DNA from: Acidobacteriaceae bacterium KBS 83
Lineage (GTDB): Bacteria; Acidobacteriota; Terriglobia; Terriglobales; Acidobacteriaceae
NCBI GenBank assembly: GCA_000381585.1
Contig: KB906738.1
Coordinates: 186,001-250,000 of the forward strand
Direction: 5' to 3'
DNA length: 64,000 bases
Shown: piece by piece, positions 3,128-13,769 of the stretch
How the letters are laid out: each line of letters begins with the position of its first letter
Position numbering within the stretch: the first letter of the stretch is position 1
Made by a program: the position numbers and the translations under genes
The notes under the pieces: model-generated
What the model was told of the DNA's origin: nothing
The model's input: the letters and a program-made list of their open reading frames with translations, nothing else
The model's database searches: none

Positions 3128-3730
3128 ATGAAGATCACCAGCCTTACTTTGCCTCTTTTTGCACTCTGCGCGGTTACTATCTCGGCGCAACAAACAACAC
3201 ATCATACGAGCACCACAGCCACGCAGCGTCGACCAGCAGCTCCGTGTACGGCAGAAAGTCCCGCCCCCCAATTACCGCCCGGTATTCCGCCGGCGAGTGG
3301 GAAGCTGGAATCGGCATTTGCTCTTCGCTATATCGATATCAAAGCCGGTGATGGAGCAGAGGCGCAGCCCAATCAGTTCTACACCGTCCATTACACGGGA
3401 TGGCTGGCGTCAGACGGAACGAAGTTCGACTCGTCGGTCGATCGCAATGAACCCATCACTTTCCAACAGGGTGTCCATCGAGTCATTCCCGGCTGGGACT
3501 ACGGCTTCGCCGGGATGCATGTAGGCGGAAAGCGCCGCCTGTTCATTCCCTATCAGCTCGCGTATGGCGAGCGCGGTCGGCCACCTGTGATCCCGCCAAA
3601 GGGTGATTTGATCTTTGATATTGAACTGCTTGCGGCCAATGACACGGAGCCGCCACCACCGCCACCGCCTGTGGCGCCTCCACAGCCAGAGCCGCCTCCG
3701 CAATCGACTCCGCCTCCACCGTCTAAGTAG
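3128..3730 (+). CDS. Secreted FKBP-type peptidyl-prolyl cis-trans isomerase
   Basis: Catalyses proline isomerisation during folding of exported proteins. The 200-residue product has a signal peptide (about residues 1-20, ending SAQ), a low-complexity linker, and one FKBP domain at about 62-170 with the family signature YTVHYTGWLASDGTKFDSS, then the VIPGWDYGFAGMHVGGKRRL block and IPPKGDLIFDIELL. The last 30 residues are almost all proline with E, Q, S and V, an unusual poly-proline tail that may cross the wall or bind a partner. The start is supported by GGAG a few bases upstream. Its 3' end overlaps the convergent gene by 8 bp. Confidence 0.93.
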   Translation: MKITSLTLPLFALCAVTISAQQTTHHTSTTATQRRPAAPCTAESPAPQLPPGIPPASGKLESAFALRYIDIKAGDGAEAQPNQFYTVHYTGWLASDGTKFDSSVDRNEPITFQQGVHRVIPGWDYGFAGMHVGGKRRLFIPYQLAYGERGRPPVIPPKGDLIFDIELLAANDTEPPPPPPPVAPPQPEPPPQSTPPPPSK

Positions 3731-5219
3731 CCGGTGCGGCTTTTTGGCGGTGACGCCGAAACAGACGCCAGGCCACAAAGACCAGGAGCAAGAGCACAAG
3801 AATGACGGCGATAAGAAACGTGAGGAATGGATGGGTGCGCTGCACCAGCCCGAGGCGATCGGCGACTGTGACGCGTTCCAGATCACCGGCAAGGCCGGGG
3901 ATGACCATGTCGCTATATTGCACAGTCGGCAATGCGCCGAGCACACGATCGATAGGAGGTAGTTCGGAACCGCGATCCGAAGGCAATGCATTGAAAGCAG
4001 CCAGGAACTCACGGTCGCGTGGATCTGTCGATCCGGCTTGCGGGAAGTATGCGGGATCGTGGGTTATAGGAAAGAGATGGGTTTTGCCGCGAAGATCTGA
4101 TTCCACCGCGGCGCTCACGTCCTGGCAGACTCCCAGCCGATAGTAGCCGCCGAATGGTAACTCCGGATGGGCGCGGCGTGCACCGTAGTAGACGCGGACA
4201 GCCGCGCTCAACAGCCTCATCGCGTGGAGCTGCTGGCTTGAGTCATCGTAGGCGAAAAGGATGCGGTGCATCACCCAGCTCTGATTGAGCGAGTCATTGG
4301 TGCGAAACTCTGCCTTGCCATCGATGCCGAAATAAAAGGCAACATCTGCATTCCACTTCGGGCCGCGTATATGCAACTCCTGCTCGGAGTGGCTGACTGG
4401 CAGCAGCAAGGAGCGCCGGCTCGCGGGGACAGCAATCTGCGTGTCAATCCAGAACGGCATGATGACCTCGCGACCGCGATCGTGGAGATGGCCGAAGTTC
4501 GCGAAATAGACATCATCGGTGATCGTCACCTTGTGTCCCTTCTGCCTGATCTCCTGAATGAGGGCGCCCCCATCGACGAAGCGCTTTCCGTCCAGGACAG
4601 CCGCGGCCTCGGGCTGGCCCGGTCCATTCATAGCCAGGCGATTCAATACCGACGCAAACTGGCGGCTCTGGGCATGCATCGGAGCGAGCACCGGGTCCGG
4701 TCCATCGCCCATGATGAGATCGAAGCCCATATTTCGAGGTGCTGTCGTTGGATCGTCGGCGTACGTGGGCGTTGTGGCGGGATGATCGAGATCGATCGTC
4801 GCCGAATGCCCGACAGGGTATTCGGCAGTGTCCAGCAGATCAGCAAGGTCGAGCGGCGCAGTCGACTTCCCTGCCATCGCGCTGGCCGCATCGACACTTT
4901 TGTTGAGAGCAGCGACAGTCAGCGCCGGGAAGTGATCGACGCGTTGCCACTCTTTCCCAAGGATGAGAACGCGCAAGCGCTGAACGAGATTGGGAGAAAG
5001 AAACTCGCCGGCCTTCGGGACATCATGTATCCCCTGAAGCACGCGCTCGCGAAACTCGGGCTGCGCCGAAACGCGCTGCATCACGGTCGAGAAAAGTACC
5101 GGCGATGTATCGCCCTCCTGCCCCGGGAGCCCAACCGCTACCAGGAGCAGGAGGACGAGACAACTCAGAGCCGTACGGTATGGCCGGCATATGCGCGGGG
5201 CAGATGCAGTTCTTGGCAT
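3723..5219 (-). CDS. Unrecognised exported protein with C-terminal membrane anchor
   Basis: Family not recognised. The 498-residue product has an N-terminal signal or anchor segment (residues about 15-33, SCLVLLLLVAVGLPG). A long soluble region follows with conserved-looking motifs: FDLIMGDGPDPV, ADVAFYFGIDGKAEFRTNDSL and YYRLGVCQDVSAAVESDLRGK. A C-terminal transmembrane helix (about 463-485) precedes a basic tail RRHRQK. The topology suggests a large periplasmic domain tethered at its C-terminus. It is transcribed alone and converges with the FKBP gene, overlapping its last codons. No catalytic triad or metal motif is clear enough to assign an activity. Confidence 0.75.
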   Translation of the reverse strand: MPRTASAPRICRPYRTALSCLVLLLLVAVGLPGQEGDTSPVLFSTVMQRVSAQPEFRERVLQGIHDVPKAGEFLSPNLVQRLRVLILGKEWQRVDHFPALTVAALNKSVDAASAMAGKSTAPLDLADLLDTAEYPVGHSATIDLDHPATTPTYADDPTTAPRNMGFDLIMGDGPDPVLAPMHAQSRQFASVLNRLAMNGPGQPEAAAVLDGKRFVDGGALIQEIRQKGHKVTITDDVYFANFGHLHDRGREVIMPFWIDTQIAVPASRRSLLLPVSHSEQELHIRGPKWNADVAFYFGIDGKAEFRTNDSLNQSWVMHRILFAYDDSSQQLHAMRLLSAAVRVYYGARRAHPELPFGGYYRLGVCQDVSAAVESDLRGKTHLFPITHDPAYFPQAGSTDPRDREFLAAFNALPSDRGSELPPIDRVLGALPTVQYSDMVIPGLAGDLERVTVADRLGLVQRTHPFLTFLIAVILVLLLLVFVAWRLFRRHRQKAAPAT

Positions 5220-5485: not shown

Positions 5486-6814
5486 CTAGGTTTTGAGTTC
5501 CGCGAGCCACAGTAAGGCGCGAAGGCTAGGCATGAAGCAATATTCCCCGCCGCGTGTGATCACGAACCGGGGCAAACCTTGGAGGCGCGTCCGAATCGGA
5601 CGCCTCGGCACGTCGAAGACTCCTATACCATCGCCCGCGCCGGATATGGGGTCCACCCCCGATGTTCCCCCGAAGAAAGCACTGTCGTTCATCCACTCAG
5701 ATTGAACAAACTCGAATTGGCGGCCGATGTGGGCACCGACGAAGGCAAACATCAACCCGCGGTCCGCGCCATCATCTTCGAGGACACCCGGTGGGAGAGG
5801 TGGGCCATAGGCGGTTCCTCTACGTATCATTCGATGGATTCGTACCAGGCCTGCGACATCAGCATCCCGCGGGTTCAGGCGGCGGATGTGCGAGCCTAAA
5901 GGAGTCTTGTAGCCTATCGCATCGTCCGCCTTGAACAGGAAGTCGTTGTTGCGCCGCGAGTCAACTCCAAGCTCGGGATCGTCGTGCATAGGACACAAGG
6001 CTAGGGGAGCCCCACTCCGCCAGCGTCCCATCATCTTGGCCGCCAGAAATTCCTCGGTGTGAACGTCCGAAGCGTTGGCTTTCAGGTATTGACGGAAGGC
6101 GGCGACGCGCTGATGCAGTTTGCGAAAGACCACAAAGCTTCCATTGCGTCCCAAAATCTCCGGTTGCGGTATTTGTGGCGCCTCGCTGATCTCGTCGGGG
6201 TATCCCAGAACGAATTCGCCCGCCTTGAACGGTCTTTCATGGGAATTGGATCCCGGAATGCCGCTGCCCTCGATCGCGGGATGACTCATGCCGTCTTTGA
6301 AGCCGAACGGTTCCTTTTCATCTGGCAGAATATGGCAATCTTGCCGCCATATCGCTGCGACTCCAGTCAACTCCCGGTATGCTTTCTGGGCGCGTTCGAG
6401 CGCAGATTGAAGGTGTTCCGAGTCGGGCGAAAGTGCGGTGACGACAACGTGGACGTCGGGCGATCCGAGCGGCTTTTCCCAGTTCTCAGGACTGCTTTCA
6501 CCGCGATCTCCCAGCACTTTGGCGCGGGCCGCCATTCCCTGCTGGAACTGCAGGGGAAAGCTGTCCAGCGAGCTTTTTGGAACCCCAAGCGCCTTGAGAC
6601 CTTGAAAACTGACAGAGGCACTTACCCAGGTATCGCGAGCAGGGCTTACGGGATGAGCGGCCGATGCTACAGCCGCGCTCAAGCGGCGCATCAGTTCTCG
6701 TCCCGCAGTGCGCTCGTCAATGCGAAGCAATATATAAGTCGCCACATACGGCGTGGGCCGCGGACGCAGTACTCCGCTCTGGATCTGATCGAGTTCAAGA
6801 ACAGATGCGCTCAT
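5486..6814 (-). CDS. Dyp-type heme peroxidase
   Basis: Dye-decolourising peroxidase that uses hydrogen peroxide to oxidise dyes, phenolics or lignin-like substrates. The 442-residue length fits the family. The hallmark GxxDG motif is GFKDG at 171-175 with catalytic Asp174; the proximal heme ligand is probably His309 in HIRRLNPRD, and the distal Arg lies in IHRMIRRG near 328-332. There is no signal peptide, so it is cytoplasmic or encapsulated. It is the last gene of a minus-strand cluster starting at 10803, about 30 bp after the beta-barrel gene. The cluster also has a SthA-like flavoprotein and a DyP-fold-like small protein, hinting at one oxidative pathway. Confidence 0.92.
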   Translation of the reverse strand: MSASVLELDQIQSGVLRPRPTPYVATYILLRIDERTAGRELMRRLSAAVASAAHPVSPARDTWVSASVSFQGLKALGVPKSSLDSFPLQFQQGMAARAKVLGDRGESSPENWEKPLGSPDVHVVVTALSPDSEHLQSALERAQKAYRELTGVAAIWRQDCHILPDEKEPFGFKDGMSHPAIEGSGIPGSNSHERPFKAGEFVLGYPDEISEAPQIPQPEILGRNGSFVVFRKLHQRVAAFRQYLKANASDVHTEEFLAAKMMGRWRSGAPLALCPMHDDPELGVDSRRNNDFLFKADDAIGYKTPLGSHIRRLNPRDADVAGLVRIHRMIRRGTAYGPPLPPGVLEDDGADRGLMFAFVGAHIGRQFEFVQSEWMNDSAFFGGTSGVDPISGAGDGIGVFDVPRRPIRTRLQGLPRFVITRGGEYCFMPSLRALLWLAELKT

Positions 6815-6846
6815 GATGCCTCTCTTTGGTCAAGATCGACTTACGC

Positions 6847-7809
6847 CTAGAAGCTGAGCGAACCAGAAACCTGCAGCGAGTATCCCTGGAACGTGGAACG
6901 ATCAGAAAACTCCTTGAAATATTTGAGGCCCAAACTCGCTTTTCGCCTTGGGAAGGGCGAGTTGACAGCAAATCCAAGCGAGTTGATGGAGTAACGGTCA
7001 TTTGAGGCGGCTAAAGAAATCGTCGGCCCTGTCTTGGCGGTCGTCTGCCGTTGCTCATAACCCACAACACCGATTTGCAGCTGAACATTCCCATGGACAG
7101 AAATCGATCGCATCAGCGAGTAGTCGAGGTCGAATGTCTCCCCCGGATGGATAGTAGTGTCTTCCTGGATGGTATGAAACTCGTACATCTGAAATCCGGA
7201 GAAAACAAGGCGTTTGTTCCCCGTCAGATAGAAGGTCTGCCCTGAAGAGAGAGTATGTGTCCAATAGCCTGAACCAACGTTATCGTTCCCACCGGCGACG
7301 AAGCGCCCAGTAGGCGCAAGAAATCCATACATAGCGCGGATGGCGATGCGCTCGCGGTTCCAGCCCAGTATGAATGGCAGGTAGTATGAGTCGGCAAATC
7401 CTCCACCGCCACTGATCCTCCCCTGGATATCTGAAGTGAGGTCGTTCTTTGCGAACGGGAGGGTCGCAACCGCAGAGAAGTTTGCTCCACCAAGAAGCTT
7501 CTTCTTACTCACCCAGGCCAATGTATTCATGTCCATAAGGACGTAGTTCTCTCCTATAACCGGCAACGTATTACCGACATCGTCCTTAGCATGGTCCCGC
7601 GAGTAGAAGATAAGCTGATTGACATAAGTAAAGCCGGGCTGAGGCGTAACTCCGGAGTTGGTAGCGCTCATTCCGAGCGGATACACGCCTCGATTCTGAG
7701 CTTGTGCTCGCGTCCCAATAACCAACAAGCCGATCACTGCCAGGATCCAGCCTGGGGTCCTTTTGCAGGCGTGACGTGTCACCTGCTCGCGAGGTTCTTC
7801 CAAAAGCAC
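6847..7809 (-). CDS. Outer-membrane beta-barrel protein, SphA/phenol meta-pathway MetA-like
   Basis: Probable outer-membrane channel of the type linked to aromatic-compound catabolism (Phenol_MetA_deg-like, often labelled SphA or transporter). The 320-residue product carries a signal peptide ending TRAQAQ near residue 38. It then shows alternating hydrophobic/polar strands and a C-terminal aromatic residue (SGSLSF), typical of barrel assembly. Motifs seen include YLPFILGW and GFLAPTGRFVAGG. It overlaps the preceding gene by 31 bp and is followed at once by the DyP gene, so co-transcription is likely. The family call rests on overall pattern and context, not on a catalytic motif. Confidence 0.7.
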   Translation of the reverse strand: MLLEEPREQVTRHACKRTPGWILAVIGLLVIGTRAQAQNRGVYPLGMSATNSGVTPQPGFTYVNQLIFYSRDHAKDDVGNTLPVIGENYVLMDMNTLAWVSKKKLLGGANFSAVATLPFAKNDLTSDIQGRISGGGGFADSYYLPFILGWNRERIAIRAMYGFLAPTGRFVAGGNDNVGSGYWTHTLSSGQTFYLTGNKRLVFSGFQMYEFHTIQEDTTIHPGETFDLDYSLMRSISVHGNVQLQIGVVGYEQRQTTAKTGPTISLAASNDRYSINSLGFAVNSPFPRRKASLGLKYFKEFSDRSTFQGYSLQVSGSLSF

Positions 7810-8795
7810 TCCAGGCTCTCGTCTCCACCGAACAAGGTCGTGAAAATCGTCGAGTCTGCCAGCAATATGTCGCCGGCCCGCTCAGCATTTGGCGGCATCC
7901 AGAGAAACATGTTGAATTCACGGTTCCCGGCTTCGATGAAGGGATGCGGCCTGGACATATCGATCGGTTGTCGCGCCAGAACACGAATGGCCTTGGGATC
8001 GTCGGTGGTCACTGCGTAATGCGGCAGGTGCATGTGAAAGACGAAGGTATTGACGTCGGTCAGCCAACCTCGCGCGTCCAGGTCCTTGGCGGTGGAAAGG
8101 GGTACCGTGCGAGTTGTTCCGCTGACAGTTGCGGGGCGAAGACCAAACTTGTTTTCGACAGGCACGCCAAGCCCTTTCATGAGCGAACGGGTGTACTTGC
8201 CGAAACGCTGCTGGCGTGGGACCAGCGGATCGCCGTGATGGGCATACTCTATCTGGCGCGTTTTCAGATCATCGGAGACGCCCACGTCATGGTGCGGACC
8301 AAGGATCAGACAAGTGCCCTCGCGTGTGAGAAAGTTCCGCAGAGCTTCAATTTCTTCGGGAGAAGCCTCCTGCTCTGTCACTAGGTGGTCCAGGCCAAAC
8401 ACCATCAACGTATCTGTATCGTCGAGTATCCGCTCGTCAATCGGTAATCGCTGCCCAGCCTGATCGATCCGTTGGTATACGGCCACGGGATGTCCAGTGA
8501 CTTCGCCGACCGCCGTCTGGAAGCTCACGAGCGACAAATGGAAGAGTTCAAGAGTTCCTGCGATTCCCTGCAGAAACATCTGCTCCGAATACTCAACCGA
8601 CTCAAAGTTCGGCCATCCTACCCGGCGGACCTCAGTCATAGTCGAGAAGCGATTATCCATTTCCGTTACGTCACGATTTGCCTCCCATGGGTAACTCCAG
8701 GTCCAATAAACGCTGAACCGACGCTTACCTGGTGTGTATTTTCGCGGCGTGTGAAGTTGGTTGTAGGTTCGACCCGAACGTCTGGTTTGGCTCAT
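7779..8795 (-). CDS. Unrecognised cytosolic protein of the DyP cluster
   Basis: The 338-residue product has no signal peptide or membrane segment. The start ATG has GGGAG nine bases upstream. The central part (about 120-175), with DDTDTLMVFGLDH then EALRNFLTREGTCLILGPHHDVG, resembles the Rossmann-like ThuA/glutamine-amidotransferase-like fold, in which an extended sheet is followed by a helix and a glycine-rich turn. I see no Cys-His-Glu triad, so catalysis by that route is doubtful. A later HMHLPHYAV segment is histidine-rich and could bind metal. It lies between the flavoprotein and the outer-membrane protein genes, overlapping the latter by 31 bp. Confidence 0.65.
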   Translation of the reverse strand: MSQTRRSGRTYNQLHTPRKYTPGKRRFSVYWTWSYPWEANRDVTEMDNRFSTMTEVRRVGWPNFESVEYSEQMFLQGIAGTLELFHLSLVSFQTAVGEVTGHPVAVYQRIDQAGQRLPIDERILDDTDTLMVFGLDHLVTEQEASPEEIEALRNFLTREGTCLILGPHHDVGVSDDLKTRQIEYAHHGDPLVPRQQRFGKYTRSLMKGLGVPVENKFGLRPATVSGTTRTVPLSTAKDLDARGWLTDVNTFVFHMHLPHYAVTTDDPKAIRVLARQPIDMSRPHPFIEAGNREFNMFLWMPPNAERAGDILLADSTIFTTLFGGDESLECFWKNLASR

Positions 8796-8816
8796 ATATT
8801 CATCTCCCTGGATCCA

Positions 8817-10220
8817 TCAGACATGCGTTTCTGTTTCGGATGAAACAAGGCGACGCAAGCCGTCGAATGCGGCGTACTTGTAGGCATAACTGTAGGTGGG
8901 AGTGTTCATCGACATGTTGGCGATAGTATTCATCGTTCCTCCGCAGCGGATGACCATCTGCCCGATACCAACGATCTCCGAGGCGATGTCACCTATGCAG
9001 TGAACGCCGACCAGCCTCCGATCGGCCTTCAGAAAAATCAACTTCAAGAGGCCGCCACGTCCAGCAATGGCACCTCGCGGCGTGAGGGCGAGATCCGCGC
9101 GGCCGACTTCGTAATCGAGTTTTCTTTCACTGCACTGCGCCTCGGTCAGGCCCGCCCCGGAAACTTCCGGCATACTGTAAACCGCCGAGACGGGAGTCGG
9201 ATCCACTGTTCCCTGGAATGGAATACTGAAAGCGTGACAGATTGCCAATCGCCCTTGCTCCATCGCCGTTGAGGCCAACGTCGGCCCAAGCACGTCGCCT
9301 GCGGCATAGATCCCATCCGCAGACGTGCGGAAGCTCTGGTCGACAACGATTCGCCCGCGGGAATCCAGATCTACTCCTACGGCTTCAAGTCCGAGGCCGT
9401 CTGTGTTCGCACTACGACCAGCGGCGAAAAGCACGGTGTCTGGGAGCAGACTCTCTCCCGTCGACGCTTTCACTTGTAATCCATCGCCCTTCGCCGCAAT
9501 GCTTTCCGCGGTCGAACCGAATAGAATGCGCAGGCCCCATTTCCGAAATAGCTCCTCCATGCACGCTGACATTTCGGCGTCCATTGTCGGCATTAGGCGA
9601 GTTCCGCGATCGAGGATCGTTACTCTTGCCCCCAATACATGACAAATGGTCGCGAACTCCACACCGACAGGGCCCCCGCCCACGATGACGATGTCCTTTG
9701 GGACACGACCGCGCTGCAAGATGGTATCTGTATCGCAGACTCCTGGGATGTCGAACGAAATATTCCTTGGACGGAACGGACGGGAACCTGTCGAGATCAA
9801 GACCGCCTTCGCGCGCAGGTTGCGGTGATTCCCATCATCGTCGGACACGACGACAGAACCGCCTGGTTCGAAGCGGGCAGTCCCCTGGATGTAGTCCACT
9901 TTGTTCTTCGCAATATTCTCTGCTGTCACCTTTTGGAGCAGATCGCAAACACTTGAGGTCCGCTTGCGAATCACATCGGTGGCGATCTCAGGAGGCGCTG
10001 CCATGCGAAGCCCATACACATCGCCTTCGCAGAAGCCCCAAAAGTAAAGCGCGGCTTCACGAAGCGTCTTCGTTGGGGCACCACCGCTTGTCGTTACCGT
10101 TCCGCCTGGCCGGTATTTCTCGATGACCGCCGATCGGTAGCCAAAGAACGATGCTAGCTCCGTGGCGCTCTCTCCGGCAGGGCCCGCGCCGATGGCAATA
10201 AGATCGTAGATATCCGTCAT
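8817..10220 (-). CDS. SthA-like pyridine nucleotide-disulfide oxidoreductase lacking the redox cysteines
   Basis: FAD- and NAD(P)-binding flavoprotein closest in pattern to soluble NAD(P)+ transhydrogenase. The 467-residue product has the FAD dinucleotide fold GAGPAG at 11-16, the NAD fold GGGPVGVEFA near 183-192, the second FAD motif IYAAGDV near 308-314 and a C-terminal dimerisation domain. At the position of the usual C-x4-C disulfide the sequence is GGTVTTSGGAPTK, so both cysteines are absent; SthA itself keeps a single Cys here. It probably moves hydride between nicotinamides or to a partner acceptor. It is the second gene of the DyP cluster, 22 bp after the 186-residue protein gene. Confidence 0.82.
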   Translation of the reverse strand: MTDIYDLIAIGAGPAGESATELASFFGYRSAVIEKYRPGGTVTTSGGAPTKTLREAALYFWGFCEGDVYGLRMAAPPEIATDVIRKRTSSVCDLLQKVTAENIAKNKVDYIQGTARFEPGGSVVVSDDDGNHRNLRAKAVLISTGSRPFRPRNISFDIPGVCDTDTILQRGRVPKDIVIVGGGPVGVEFATICHVLGARVTILDRGTRLMPTMDAEMSACMEELFRKWGLRILFGSTAESIAAKGDGLQVKASTGESLLPDTVLFAAGRSANTDGLGLEAVGVDLDSRGRIVVDQSFRTSADGIYAAGDVLGPTLASTAMEQGRLAICHAFSIPFQGTVDPTPVSAVYSMPEVSGAGLTEAQCSERKLDYEVGRADLALTPRGAIAGRGGLLKLIFLKADRRLVGVHCIGDIASEIVGIGQMVIRCGGTMNTIANMSMNTPTYSYAYKYAAFDGLRRLVSSETETHV

Positions 10221-10242
10221 GGCAAGCTCGTTTCGCCGGGCC

Positions 10243-10803
10243 TTATTGCATCTGATCGAGCATTTCCCCGAAAGCCTTTTTCACCCTGAGGGCTTTCTTG
10301 ATCTCGTCAGCCGTCACAAACGGATACTCGCCATATTCCATGAAGCTGGGGCGGTGGTGGTCGCGCACAAACTTGATGAATGCCGGGATATTCGTCTTCC
10401 AGTCCTCAGGAAAGCCTTCGAGGTTCTCAAAAGTAGTTGACAAGCCGGACTTCGTGAAAAGGGCTACGGCGTCATCCGTGTACTTGTCAAAATCAGTGTC
10501 AAAGATTCCCTGGTACATGAAGTACTTCTCATCGCCAATGTCGAAGAGCACCCATTTTAGATAGTGGAGCTTCAGTGCCGCCAGGAAAAACGGGTCACCC
10601 TGTATCGCCTTTTCGATCGTGTCTGCATAGGCGCGTATTGCCGCTTCCCTGCCGGGCTTGACCTTCGCGATGATGGTGAAGCCGTAACACGCGGGTGTCC
10701 TGGGAAAGACCGGCCCGTAGTTTCCCTGTTCGAACTGGAAGTATCCCTCCTTGGGGATCGCCATCGCCTGCGGTTTGGTCCAGTCCCCTGCCTGTGACGC
10801 CAT
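10243..10803 (-). CDS. Small DyP-fold-like (dimeric alpha/beta barrel) protein
   Basis: The 186-residue product is the first gene of the DyP cluster, with a strong AGGAGG site eight bases before ATG. Residues about 38-100 (FTIIAKVKPGREAAIRAYADT, then LHYLKWVLFDIGDEKYFMYQG) look like a ferredoxin-like alpha/beta unit. Similar units occur beside or fused to DyP-type peroxidases and in dimeric alpha/beta-barrel monooxygenases. No heme ligand motif (GxxDG) is present. A role as a partner of the peroxidase, or as a small cofactor-free oxygenase, is inference from fold-like pattern and context. The gene is preceded by an 18-bp palindrome about 70 bp upstream. Confidence 0.7.
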   Translation of the reverse strand: MASQAGDWTKPQAMAIPKEGYFQFEQGNYGPVFPRTPACYGFTIIAKVKPGREAAIRAYADTIEKAIQGDPFFLAALKLHYLKWVLFDIGDEKYFMYQGIFDTDFDKYTDDAVALFTKSGLSTTFENLEGFPEDWKTNIPAFIKFVRDHHRPSFMEYGEYPFVTADEIKKALRVKKAFGEMLDQMQ

Positions 10804-11001: not shown

Positions 11002-12132
11002 TCAAGGCACAGCGTCAGGCGCTGCATTTCTTGCGGGCTCTTTCTGATGGGCCTCTTCCCACGCTCTGACGTTCTTTCGTGCGGAATCGAAAAGCCGCTC
11101 ATAGTTACCTTTGCGAACCGCCTCGCGCGCTCGAGGCGTAAGCGCCTTCCAGAGGGGGTCGTATTGGTAGTAGATCTTCACGTACTTATCCTGATTCGAA
11201 GGAGCAACCTCATCGGTTCCAAAGAGGAAACGGTCCGGATAGCGGTTGATCAGGTCCGCGACTATTCGTACAGTTTCCGGACTCGCCACGATGTACCGTG
11301 CAACGACATCCCAGGAGATATCGAAATAAATGTTGCGCATCGCAGGATCACTAAGAATTGATTCCAGCATCGCCACATGGCCCTTTATTGGGACGACGAC
11401 GCGACCTAACCCGCAGTGGGCCCAGATGATAGGTCCACTCGGATGACGCTTGAAAAGTGCCTCTACCTGGTCGAGATAGGCGGGTTGGGCGCCTTCCTTT
11501 GGAAAAGGCACGTCCACGTCATTGTGCATCAACACGACTAGACCTGCTTCCGCTGCAAAATCGAGGGTGCGGTCGAGCGCCGGATTGGTGAGACTGGCCG
11601 TTTCACCAGATATTTTCGAGGAGACAAATTCCTTGTGAATCGTAAACTCCCCTATACCTGAAAACACACCAGGGAATGTTCTGAGAACCCGTTTGATATG
11701 GTCTGCTGCATACATATCGGCAGGATCAAAGCCCGTGATCATCGGATCGAATCGCAAGCGTTGTTCGGGAGCAAGGGAGCGATAGGCCATCGCTATGTAA
11801 GCGTCCGTAAACGAGTAATAGTACAGAGGCGCGTCCGTTTGCAGATAGTATGTTGGAGCGAACTTGCCTGAGTTCTGAAACGACCACTGCTGCTGCAATG
11901 GGATACCGAACAGCGCAACTCTTCCCACCTTCGTGCCCATAATCTGCAGGAAATCGTTGATATCTGTCCCTTCCTGGACGTAGTTGGTCAGGTGGAAATG
12001 GACGTCATTGAATTCATATTGTCCTGTAGAGTCCGTTTGCCCTGTGAGATGGATGCCCCACGACAAGATAAGGGCAACACCCAATACAGATCTGGCTGCC
12101 CTGCAACGCCAGGATTCAGAGTCGCTTATCAT
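11002..12132 (-). CDS. Exported amidohydrolase-family (TIM-barrel) metal-dependent hydrolase
   Basis: Predicted metal-dependent hydrolase or decarboxylase of the Amidohydro_2 type. The 376-residue product starts at an ATG shortly after a G-rich site; a TTG nine codons upstream is less likely. An N-terminal hydrophobic segment (VLGVALILSWGIHL) suggests export. Metal-site motifs appear in order: DVHFHL (HxH on strand 1), GEFTIHKEF, VLMHNDVD, WAHCGLGR and FGTDEVAP (terminal Asp). The substrate is unknown. It follows the coiled-coil porin gene by about 50 bp on the same strand, suggesting the porin imports its substrate. Confidence 0.82.
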   Translation of the reverse strand: MISDSESWRCRAARSVLGVALILSWGIHLTGQTDSTGQYEFNDVHFHLTNYVQEGTDINDFLQIMGTKVGRVALFGIPLQQQWSFQNSGKFAPTYYLQTDAPLYYYSFTDAYIAMAYRSLAPEQRLRFDPMITGFDPADMYAADHIKRVLRTFPGVFSGIGEFTIHKEFVSSKISGETASLTNPALDRTLDFAAEAGLVVLMHNDVDVPFPKEGAQPAYLDQVEALFKRHPSGPIIWAHCGLGRVVVPIKGHVAMLESILSDPAMRNIYFDISWDVVARYIVASPETVRIVADLINRYPDRFLFGTDEVAPSNQDKYVKIYYQYDPLWKALTPRAREAVRKGNYERLFDSARKNVRAWEEAHQKEPARNAAPDAVP

Positions 12133-12179
12133 CGGAGAGCCCCCCAGGCATCTCGCCAAACCACTCGCTTAGAGATCGC

Positions 12180-13769
12180 TCAGAATGCCATCTCGAGAGT
12201 TGTAGAAAAGATCGGCCCTGTTCCTCCGAGGGCAAAGGGCACTGACGTGTAGCCAACAGGCGACCTATAGGTATAGAGATACTCGGTATTCCAGCGGACC
12301 ACTCTGTTCTTGTAGGGGAAGTAGTTAACACCAAACCTGTAGTCCCAGGGACGACCATAATGGCCCATGATTAAAGATCCTCCCGTGTAAAACTGCAGTG
12401 ACTTGGGTATCAGCATTGCTGAGCTCTGAATTTGAAAGCCATTGTCGAACTGGGCTGGAATGCTGGATGTATTCGTTCCTTCAAAATTGGTGAGCCAATG
12501 GAGGTAATACTCCCCCGCGAGAGAAAGACCGTGATACTTTACGCCGAAGTCATAGGCGTTCATCTTATATATTGCATCTTGGATGGTGATTCCCGGCCCA
12601 AAGAGGTTGGGCGTGAAGATGACGCTGCCGTCTGAAAGACGGAGCTGCACGTTCTCGAACTGCTCGCTGTTTGGCTGACTCTGTTTGTTCTCGTTGCTCC
12701 GCGTGTAGTGAACCGCAAACCGCGTGGCCAGTTTCTCATGCCACTCAAAGTCGCCGAAGCCCATGCCAAATTCGCCTGTAGTAGGCATCCAGACAAGTGC
12801 CGAGGCAACGGTACTGAAATTGTTCGGCAGCTGAGCTGCACTGACGCCCAATGTACTAAGGTTGTTACCCACCATGACCTGGTATGTCAGGTCCTTCCCG
12901 AGCGCGCCACTCGCCTTCACGCCCGAGGTGTATGAGGGACGGAAGTATTCGTCAGCTATGTGCCTGCTATCGACGTTCAGCCAGAACGGGAAATTGCCCT
13001 CCACGCTTCTTGTGCCAGGCAAAGAATAGATTCCAGCTCCTACGATGAAGGAGTCCTTGAATTTGTAATTCAGATTTCCAGCGAGTACCACCTGAGCACC
13101 AAGGCCCTGGTTTGCGTTCGAGGTCCAAGCATAAAGAAAGTAGCGGAACCTGGGATCAAACATCCATCCGAGGAATTTAATCTGCAGTTTGTTAAGCTGG
13201 AAGTCCTGACGCTGCTGGAGCTTGGTTGTAACACCAAATGCATTCGTGTAATACGGTTCCAGGCCTTTCTGGTTCAGATAACGGGCATACGTGTAGATGC
13301 TGATATTTAGGTCGCCATACTCCGTGTTGGCAACCTTATATCCAAAATTAGGGGTATAGGTGCCCCAGGTTCTCCGTTGCTCCTGTTCCGCAGTGGAGTG
13401 CGCCGGCGCCCCCGATGCTCCGCTGCCTTCGGCCGCCACTGGCATCGCACTGGAACTCGACGTGAATCGCGTCTCTTTCAAGACGGCCTGTTGAAGCTGT
13501 ACGGCGGTTGTTTCTCCAGCTTGCTCGGCAAGCGTCTGCCGTAGCGATCCAATTACATTCATCAAATCCTGATTCTGCTTTTCAAGCCGCCCGTTCTGCT
13601 GCACGAGCAGGTCGATCTGCTTCAATAGCTCAGAAGCATTCTGCGAAGTGAGGACCGCCTTATTCTCGCCAGTGGTTGTGGTTTGCGCATTCGTCAACTC
13701 GAAGTATCCGCCGCTGAAAAGCAGCATGAGGACAACACGCTGCGCTACTTTGCCCATACCCCAATTCAC
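12180..13769 (-). CDS. Outer-membrane porin with N-terminal coiled coil
   Basis: The 529-residue product has a signal peptide ending TNAQ near residue 29. A coiled-coil stretch (about 45-85, LLKQIDLLVQQNGRLEKQNQ) follows, then a Ser/Ala-rich linker and a long beta-barrel region ending in the aromatic STTLEMAF typical of outer-membrane proteins. The arrangement resembles phosphate-selective/OprO-type porins and acidobacterial porins with a trimerising periplasmic helix. Repeated aromatic strand patterns (FRYFLYAWTSNANQG, YYLHWLTNF, WNTEYLYTYRSP) support a barrel. It precedes the amidohydrolase gene in the same direction. Substrate selectivity cannot be inferred. Confidence 0.82.
   Translation of the reverse strand: MNWGMGKVAQRVVLMLLFSGGYFELTNAQTTTTGENKAVLTSQNASELLKQIDLLVQQNGRLEKQNQDLMNVIGSLRQTLAEQAGETTAVQLQQAVLKETRFTSSSSAMPVAAEGSGASGAPAHSTAEQEQRRTWGTYTPNFGYKVANTEYGDLNISIYTYARYLNQKGLEPYYTNAFGVTTKLQQRQDFQLNKLQIKFLGWMFDPRFRYFLYAWTSNANQGLGAQVVLAGNLNYKFKDSFIVGAGIYSLPGTRSVEGNFPFWLNVDSRHIADEYFRPSYTSGVKASGALGKDLTYQVMVGNNLSTLGVSAAQLPNNFSTVASALVWMPTTGEFGMGFGDFEWHEKLATRFAVHYTRSNENKQSQPNSEQFENVQLRLSDGSVIFTPNLFGPGITIQDAIYKMNAYDFGVKYHGLSLAGEYYLHWLTNFEGTNTSSIPAQFDNGFQIQSSAMLIPKSLQFYTGGSLIMGHYGRPWDYRFGVNYFPYKNRVVRWNTEYLYTYRSPVGYTSVPFALGGTGPIFSTTLEMAF

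Follow-up and report, generated by a model that had tools for sequence, protein, structure and literature searches.

A three-gene core around a class-V DyP peroxidase recurs across twelve bacterial phyla

We analyzed a stretch of 64,000 nucleotides, referred to below as the window, from the 6.25-Mb genome of Acidobacteriaceae bacterium KBS 83 (GCA_000381585.1, contig KB906738.1, positions 186,001-250,000; contig 6 of the assembly). Five minus-strand genes at positions 5486-10803 of the window form a cluster around a DyP peroxidase. All five open reading frames (ORFs) that a preliminary description of the sequence had placed there are present, and a Pfam/NCBIfam scan together with alignment upheld the identities it had given to four of them: the DyP, a barrel, an SthA-like flavoprotein without redox cysteines and an unrecognised 338-residue protein. 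In order of transcription, the genes are as follows.

10243-10803, minus strand: S186, 186 residues, core gene 1; ORF with no Pfam or NCBIfam match, described by its predicted fold
8817-10220, minus strand: SthA-like FAD/NAD(P) flavoprotein without the redox disulfide, 467 residues, accessory (PF07992/PF02852)
7779-8795, minus strand: P338, His-rich, 338 residues, core gene 2; ORF with a GATase1/ThuA-like predicted fold
6847-7809, minus strand: outer-membrane beta barrel, 320 residues, accessory, putative entry channel (PF13557, Phenol_MetA_deg)
5486-6814, minus strand: class-V DyP peroxidase of subtype B, 442 residues, core gene 3 (TIGR01413)

From S186 to the DyP, the first three genes are 22 and 21 bases apart, P338 overlaps the barrel gene by 31 bases, and 32 bases separate the last two genes. 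The G+C content of the cluster is 0.562 versus 0.588 for the window, a comparison that gives no sign of recent entry. A promoter and terminator scan of the cluster returned nothing that clearly exceeded shuffled sequences.

To define which genes belong together, we used a scan of GTDB genome contigs that returned 248 stretches with P338 relatives, of which the best 80 were kept as the loci for all counts out of 80 given below. P338 identity across these loci was 65-88%, and neighbours were counted by tblastn, with S186 and DyP sought within 4 kb of P338. Both were found in 76 of the 80 loci, and in 75 all three genes lay on the same strand. Of the other four, L035, L050 and L062 are cut short, with P338 at most 413 bases from where the contig stops, and L049 retains a DyP fragment. 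By identity to the window DyP, the peroxidases fall into subtype B, the window's own (63-78%), and subtype A (39-46%). Gene order follows subtype wherever all three genes are present: S186-P338-DyP in all 45 subtype B loci and S186-DyP-P338 in all 31 subtype A loci. The full set of five genes occurs in the same order in Edaphobacter aggregans and a Bryobacteraceae metagenome-assembled genome (MAG; L022 and L023), where, as in the window, S186 and P338 flank the flavoprotein, and P338 and DyP flank the barrel.

The recurrence of the three-gene core is far beyond chance, and we are almost certain that the gene set is a genuine module. Conserved co-occurrence, which the preliminary description had named as the test of its cluster, was strongly evident, and the cluster is not incidental. 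The description's five-gene system did not survive in that form: at the distances searched, the flavoprotein was found in 16 of the 80 loci and this type of barrel in 14, and both are accessories to a core of S186, P338 and DyP.

The 80 loci span twelve phyla, assigned from record titles, many of them of MAGs in which binning may err: Acidobacteriota, Bacteroidota, Eremiobacterota, Gemmatimonadota, Myxococcota, Planctomycetota, Actinomycetota, Cyanobacteriota, Verrucomicrobiota, Pseudomonadota, Ignavibacteriota and Rokubacteria. Thirty-six loci are actinobacterial and 44 lie outside Actinomycetota. An initial view of P338 as unique to the host genome (1 of 297 genomes in a first draw of the phylum) was overturned by a tblastn search of plasmids, in which P338 appeared at 67-72% identity on eight plasmids, three from Nostoc and five from Streptomyces, of which three are nearly alike. 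The same eight plasmids carry S186 with an adjoining DyP, giving eight plasmid records with the core; nine weaker P338 matches came from Rhizobium and Caballeronia plasmid records, and no P338 relative was found in the viral contigs searched. One of the Rhizobium relatives, from R. leguminosarum RCAM0610 (L021, 9962-10952), is split over two frames and looks broken. Within the window's own family, P338 is patchy, occurring in 7 of 200 genomes including the host, which itself has a single match in a genome search. Regions from four of the six other family genomes contained S186, a type A DyP and P338 together with a barrel in all four, and an SBF carrier in two, with SBF and barrel directly downstream; two of these four regions are apparently the L025 and L057 contigs, already among the loci. 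The module is not peculiar to Acidobacteria, where it is patchy; it is widespread in other bacteria.

The phylogeny of P338 mixes phyla, with Comamonas inside a supported Myxococcaceae clade and Nostoc grouped with a planctomycete and a gemmatimonadete. The DyP subtype label requires three changes on the P338 tree and four on the S186 tree, in which the row L091 is a long branch; supported branches force at least two and at least three changes, respectively. These changes indicate that DyPs of both subtypes have served alongside S186 and P338. As judged from the trees and the eight plasmid records, the module is laterally spread; by the trees, the DyP has been exchanged within it.

The window DyP passes TIGR01413 (114.1 bits, cutoff 100.5), and its closest solved relatives are 8re3 and 8re2, both of DrDyP from Deinococcus radiodurans. 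Its distal motif is GFKDG at residues 171-175. We compared 83 DyPs, 34 of subtype A and 49 of subtype B, the latter including the window DyP and one Rhodococcus DyP without P338. D174, H309 and R331 were invariant in all 83; by analogy with other DyPs, we take H309 and R331 to be the proximal His and the distal Arg. By its family profile and these residues, the window gene encodes a class-V DyP with intact catalytic residues. The fifth residue of the GXXDG motif was Gly in 49 of 49 subtype B and Arg in 34 of 34 subtype A sequences. The subtype A module DyPs (L024 and 33 others) thus carry GXXDR and may be catalytically unusual. Elsewhere, the host genome encodes a second DyP, 41% identical to the first and accompanied, on the other strand, by a tandem S186-like protein (L109, 1123-4152).

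S186 had nothing above Pfam or NCBIfam cutoffs. Its predicted model (pLDDT, the predicted local distance difference test, 92.9) is a half-barrel whose best matches are ABM, TcmI-cyclase, NIPSNAP and rhamnose mutarotase folds. The best Z was 7.6 and the best Foldseek expectation value (E) 1.4e-3; a place in the dimeric alpha+beta barrel superfamily is plausible, but these values are in the range of common arrangements. The earlier portrayal of S186 as a small DyP-fold-like protein holds in general terms, since the halves of a DyP are also half-barrels of this kind, but its best fold matches lie elsewhere, and a profile comparison with DyP (hhalign probability 1.5) gave no sequence relation. The 50 fold matches listed include no DyP chain, though one may lie further down. 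Searched against solved structures, the S186 and P338 profiles gave weak matches to unrelated molecules only.

We then examined how S186 is distributed relative to DyP. A search with the S186 profile revealed family members adjoining DyPs that lack P338, including in all eight plasmid loci first fetched by DyP alone, among them that of DrDyP. We surveyed 217 genomes of the phylum, accepting DyP at E up to 1e-20 and S186-family matches at E up to 1e-3. DyP occurred at nine places in eight genomes, and S186 matches in exactly the same eight; as the S186 profile includes rows from four of these (the host, G051, G063 and G075), the agreement is partly built in, and its untrained support comes from the remaining four and from the 209 genomes that had neither match. 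At all nine places, S186 lay within 3.5 kb of the DyP, eight times on the same strand and once on the opposite strand about 0.7 kb away. The only S186 match distant from a DyP was in G036, a genome of the window's family (L106, 8307-8870; 65% identity), where it stops at residue 164. No DyP or P338 was found in the 18 kb fetched around this match, and a nearby fragment reads like what we take to be an IS110 transposase; the G036 match is probably the remnant of a decayed or lost module.

Plasmids gave a similar picture. There were 66 plasmid records with a DyP match, 60 of them among the matches listed, and 40 of these had at least 40% identity, several being near-copies. S186 lay near the DyP in all 40 when coordinates were compared by eye (37 plus 3, one of them about 1.5 kb away). 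Seven further DyP loci were fetched at less than 40% identity, one of which (L117) is also among the eight plasmid loci fetched by DyP alone; an S186 domain was nearby or fused in five. In the two fusions, L128 (1443 residues) and L130 (987 residues), the S186 domain precedes the aligned DyP region within a single annotated gene. Gene fusion combined with constant linkage is a usual sign of physical or tight functional partnership, and on these grounds S186 is probably a working partner of the class-V DyP.

A broader reading, which we put forward tentatively, is that bacterial class-V DyPs are two-component enzymes with an S186-family protein as an obligate subunit, and that the P338 module is one specialised branch in which the two supply a new family of metalloenzymes, as part of an undescribed oxidation pathway that has spread laterally. 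If S186 is an obligate subunit, its absence could account for the reported inactivity of DrDyP by itself at physiological pH: the available portion of the DrDyP paper reports almost no activity above pH 4 (PMC10820274). That portion names no partner, nor do the words "operon" or "catalase" occur in it; likewise, "partner", "heterodimer" and "accessory" do not occur in the accessible part of a DyP review (PMC8197335). Several points speak against an obligate subunit, in addition to the partly built-in agreement of the genome survey. No S186 match was found near the DyPs of L129 and L133 (30-34% identity). The DrDyP text also states that activity at acidic pH is general among DyPs (PMC10820274, in part), so the behaviour of DrDyP needs no missing partner. 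As for the motif, the fifth residue of DrDyP is Met190, and its Met-to-Gly variant still has low-spin heme (PMC10820274, in part).

Other S186-DyP pairs adjoin catalase-family genes. Relatives of five such catalase-family proteins were found in none of the 80 module loci, which indicates that P338 marks a different branch of these pairs. In L110, L112 and L113, the S186-DyP pair is accompanied by a catalase-family gene and a 3-hydroxyacyl-CoA dehydrogenase, and the A. pusense cluster also contains an oleate hydratase and a thioesterase. This content suggests a sister cluster whose substrates are unsaturated or hydroperoxy fatty acids.

P338 likewise matched no Pfam family or NCBIfam above cutoff. 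Its predicted model had a pLDDT of 80.1 and a predicted template modelling score of 0.84, with residues 36-66 and 73-79 poorly defined. The best fold match was 5fms, the N-terminal domain of IFT52 (Z 15.4, root-mean-square deviation 2.9, 202 aligned residues), and the ThuA-like 1t0b also aligned well (Z 13.2, deviation 3.4, 203 residues). GATases carry a nucleophile elbow with a Cys at the position where, in P338, the strand at 162-167 ends in P167-H168-H169-D170. H168, H169, H186, H187, H254, H256 and H284 were invariant in 92 of 92 sequences, five of which belong to distant relatives in Rhizobium and Caballeronia. This invariant set suggests that P338 holds a metal or catalytic centre. A 38% relative in Rhizobium sp. 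T1473 (L014, 8182-12350) stands with DUF692, DUF2282, a "DNA-binding domain" gene, DoxX and an ABM gene, an operon that is presumably of the bufferin type.

The window barrel passes PF13557 (124 bits, cutoff 22), and its N-terminus reads as signal-like. The porin and SBF queries were picked from module neighbours, so that their counts are descriptive and not a test. A porin belonging to any of four families lay within 4.5 kb of P338 in 25 of the 80 loci (Phenol_MetA_deg 14, DcaP 8, OprB 2, OprD 1). All of these come from the 44 non-actinobacterial loci, and none from the 36 actinobacterial ones. An SBF carrier was found near the core in 25 loci, 17 of them actinobacterial. The use of non-homologous porins in one role argues for substrate import.

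The flavoprotein is nearest to the SthA model PRK05249 (410.7 bits, under the cutoff of 465), and its nearest solved chain is the soluble transhydrogenase 9n4y. The redox-disulfide test of the window protein (GGTVTTSGGAPTK) showed both Cys positions replaced. The 16 module flavoproteins, found within 6 kb and on the core strand in 14 cases, form two lineages that are about 30% alike. All 16 have other residues at both redox cysteine positions, with only the first motif readable in the truncated L047. That an enzyme without the disulfide was recruited twice suggests that it passes hydride directly to a small molecule and does not work by disulfide chemistry. The reductant-handling role given to it in the preliminary description is putative. 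The host genome also encodes a separate 36% relative, perhaps its ordinary SthA.

Genes flanking the cluster were also considered. An Amidohydro_2 protein and a porin-like protein lie directly upstream (11002-13769). Only three of the 80 loci (L025, L031 and L074) had a relative of the amidohydrolase at 10 kb or less from the core, and both genes were therefore left out of the module. Downstream, a 498-residue ORF (3723-5219) has a C-terminal hydrophobic stretch; it had no Pfam or NCBIfam match and no blastp match in the loci searched.

Taken together, we consider the chances about even that the module imports and oxidises an organic compound. It would take up a small, probably anionic compound from soil or water for oxidative conversion in the cytoplasm. 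The porin, joined in other copies by an SBF-type inner-membrane carrier, would admit the compound, and the class-V DyP would activate H2O2 on its heme. S186, as a separate half-barrel, would be a subunit partnering the DyP, where it would gate or shape the active site or hold the substrate. P338, with its invariant His/Asp cluster, may perform a second step, probably dependent on a metal, on either the substrate or the product of its oxidation. Where present, the disulfide-less flavoprotein could deliver NAD(P)H electrons directly to a small molecule, reducing the product, or to O2, supplying peroxide locally. What the sequences show is the conserved co-occurrence, the tie of gene order to DyP subtype, the intact catalytic residues of the DyP, the linkage and fusion of S186 with DyP, the loss of both cysteines from the flavoprotein, the recurring transport genes and the lateral spread; complex formation, a metal site, the class of substrate and all of the chemistry in this scheme are inferred. 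The coherent oxidative degradation or detoxification module envisaged in the preliminary description is supported in part: the recurrence of porins and SBF transporters agrees with a role in import and oxidation, but the five-gene form does not hold.

Several observations count against import and oxidation. Neither a porin nor an SBF match was nearby in 36 of the 80 loci, 17 of them outside Actinomycetota, so that transport is either not obligatory, encoded beyond short contigs or of other types. In 2 of the 16 loci with a flavoprotein, that gene is on the other strand. The predicted fold of P338 is very common and gives no function, and a ThuA assignment found no support, with no PF06283 match and an hhalign probability of 0.3 against seven ThuA proteins. 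Finally, SnoaL-type genes occur in 10 fetched loci, some beside core genes (one member was checked by Pfam), and AMP-binding enzymes in 4, which leaves room for a biosynthetic role.

Three alternatives to import and oxidation were weighed. One is an oxidative-stress module, in which DyP and its partner would remove H2O2 or lipid hydroperoxides, the flavoprotein would supply or balance NAD(P)H, and P338 would be a repair enzyme. The catalase-family and fatty-acid genes beside S186-DyP pairs outside the module (D. radiodurans, Agrobacterium, Acinetobacter) fit this role; the absence of catalase-family relatives from the module loci and the patchy distribution in the family do not, and entry porins and SBF carriers would be hard to explain, which makes it unlikely. 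A biosynthetic module, in which DyP, S186 and P338 would make or modify a secondary metabolite for export by the SBF carrier or porin, draws on the SnoaL-type and AMP-binding genes, on the polyketide cyclases and ABM oxygenases among the S186 fold matches, and on the many hosts that are Streptomyces, myxobacteria or Nostoc. We regard it as improbable: of the ten neighbour proteins that were annotated first, none builds a scaffold, although most neighbour clusters lie outside that annotation, and the porin families found, DcaP, OprD, OprB and Phenol_MetA_deg, are known chiefly as uptake or catabolic channels. The third, a single-enzyme system in which P338 and S186 would mature or protect the DyP through heme insertion, folding or control of the dimer, is somewhat less likely still, for although S186 follows class-V DyPs generally and is fused to DyP twice, P338 is missing beside most plasmid DyPs (17 plasmid records with P338, 66 with DyP), its His and Asp residues are invariant over the 92 sequences as in an enzyme, and a P338-like protein stands with DUF692 and DUF2282 genes and no annotated DyP.

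The finding is larger than first described: a three-gene module whose channel and flavoprotein can be exchanged and whose foundation, the pairing of DyP with S186, extends well beyond the module. The module is absent from the family libraries searched and, judged by titles and the starts of abstracts, from the open-licence PubMed Central papers that the literature searches listed. The combination of S186, P338 and DyP points to an oxidation pathway not yet described. P338 is a widespread, highly conserved family without a Pfam entry, and its tie to a heme peroxidase in twelve phyla suggests one shared, still unnamed soil substrate. For DyPs at large, natural substrates and roles remain unclear according to the available part of the DrDyP paper (PMC10820274).

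Known systems share parts of this arrangement. P338 resembles ThuA and class I GATases in its predicted fold and in a His after the matching strand; it differs in having no Pfam match, no significant profile comparison and His-His-Asp in place of the nucleophile Cys. SthA is the closest family to the flavoprotein and, by alignment, also lacks the second Cys, whereas the window protein falls under the SthA cutoff and has both Cys positions replaced. EfeUOB likewise places a DyP (EfeB) in an operon with transport genes, but no EfeU or EfeO family was found among the ten window genes scanned, and the EfeB model scored 19 bits against a cutoff of 428. Encapsulin-DyP nanocompartments also give a DyP a dedicated partner gene; in the window, no encapsulin family was found among the ten genes scanned, and S186 is predicted to be a half-barrel, not a shell protein. 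The nearest solved relative is DrDyP (8RE2/8RE3; PMC10820274), a class-V enzyme 48% identical to the window DyP, with Met as the fifth motif residue (from the available text) where the window has Gly and subtype A has Arg. Its record has no P338 match and a catalase-family gene downstream, unlike the module, but, as in the module, an S186-family gene lies directly upstream of the peroxidase.

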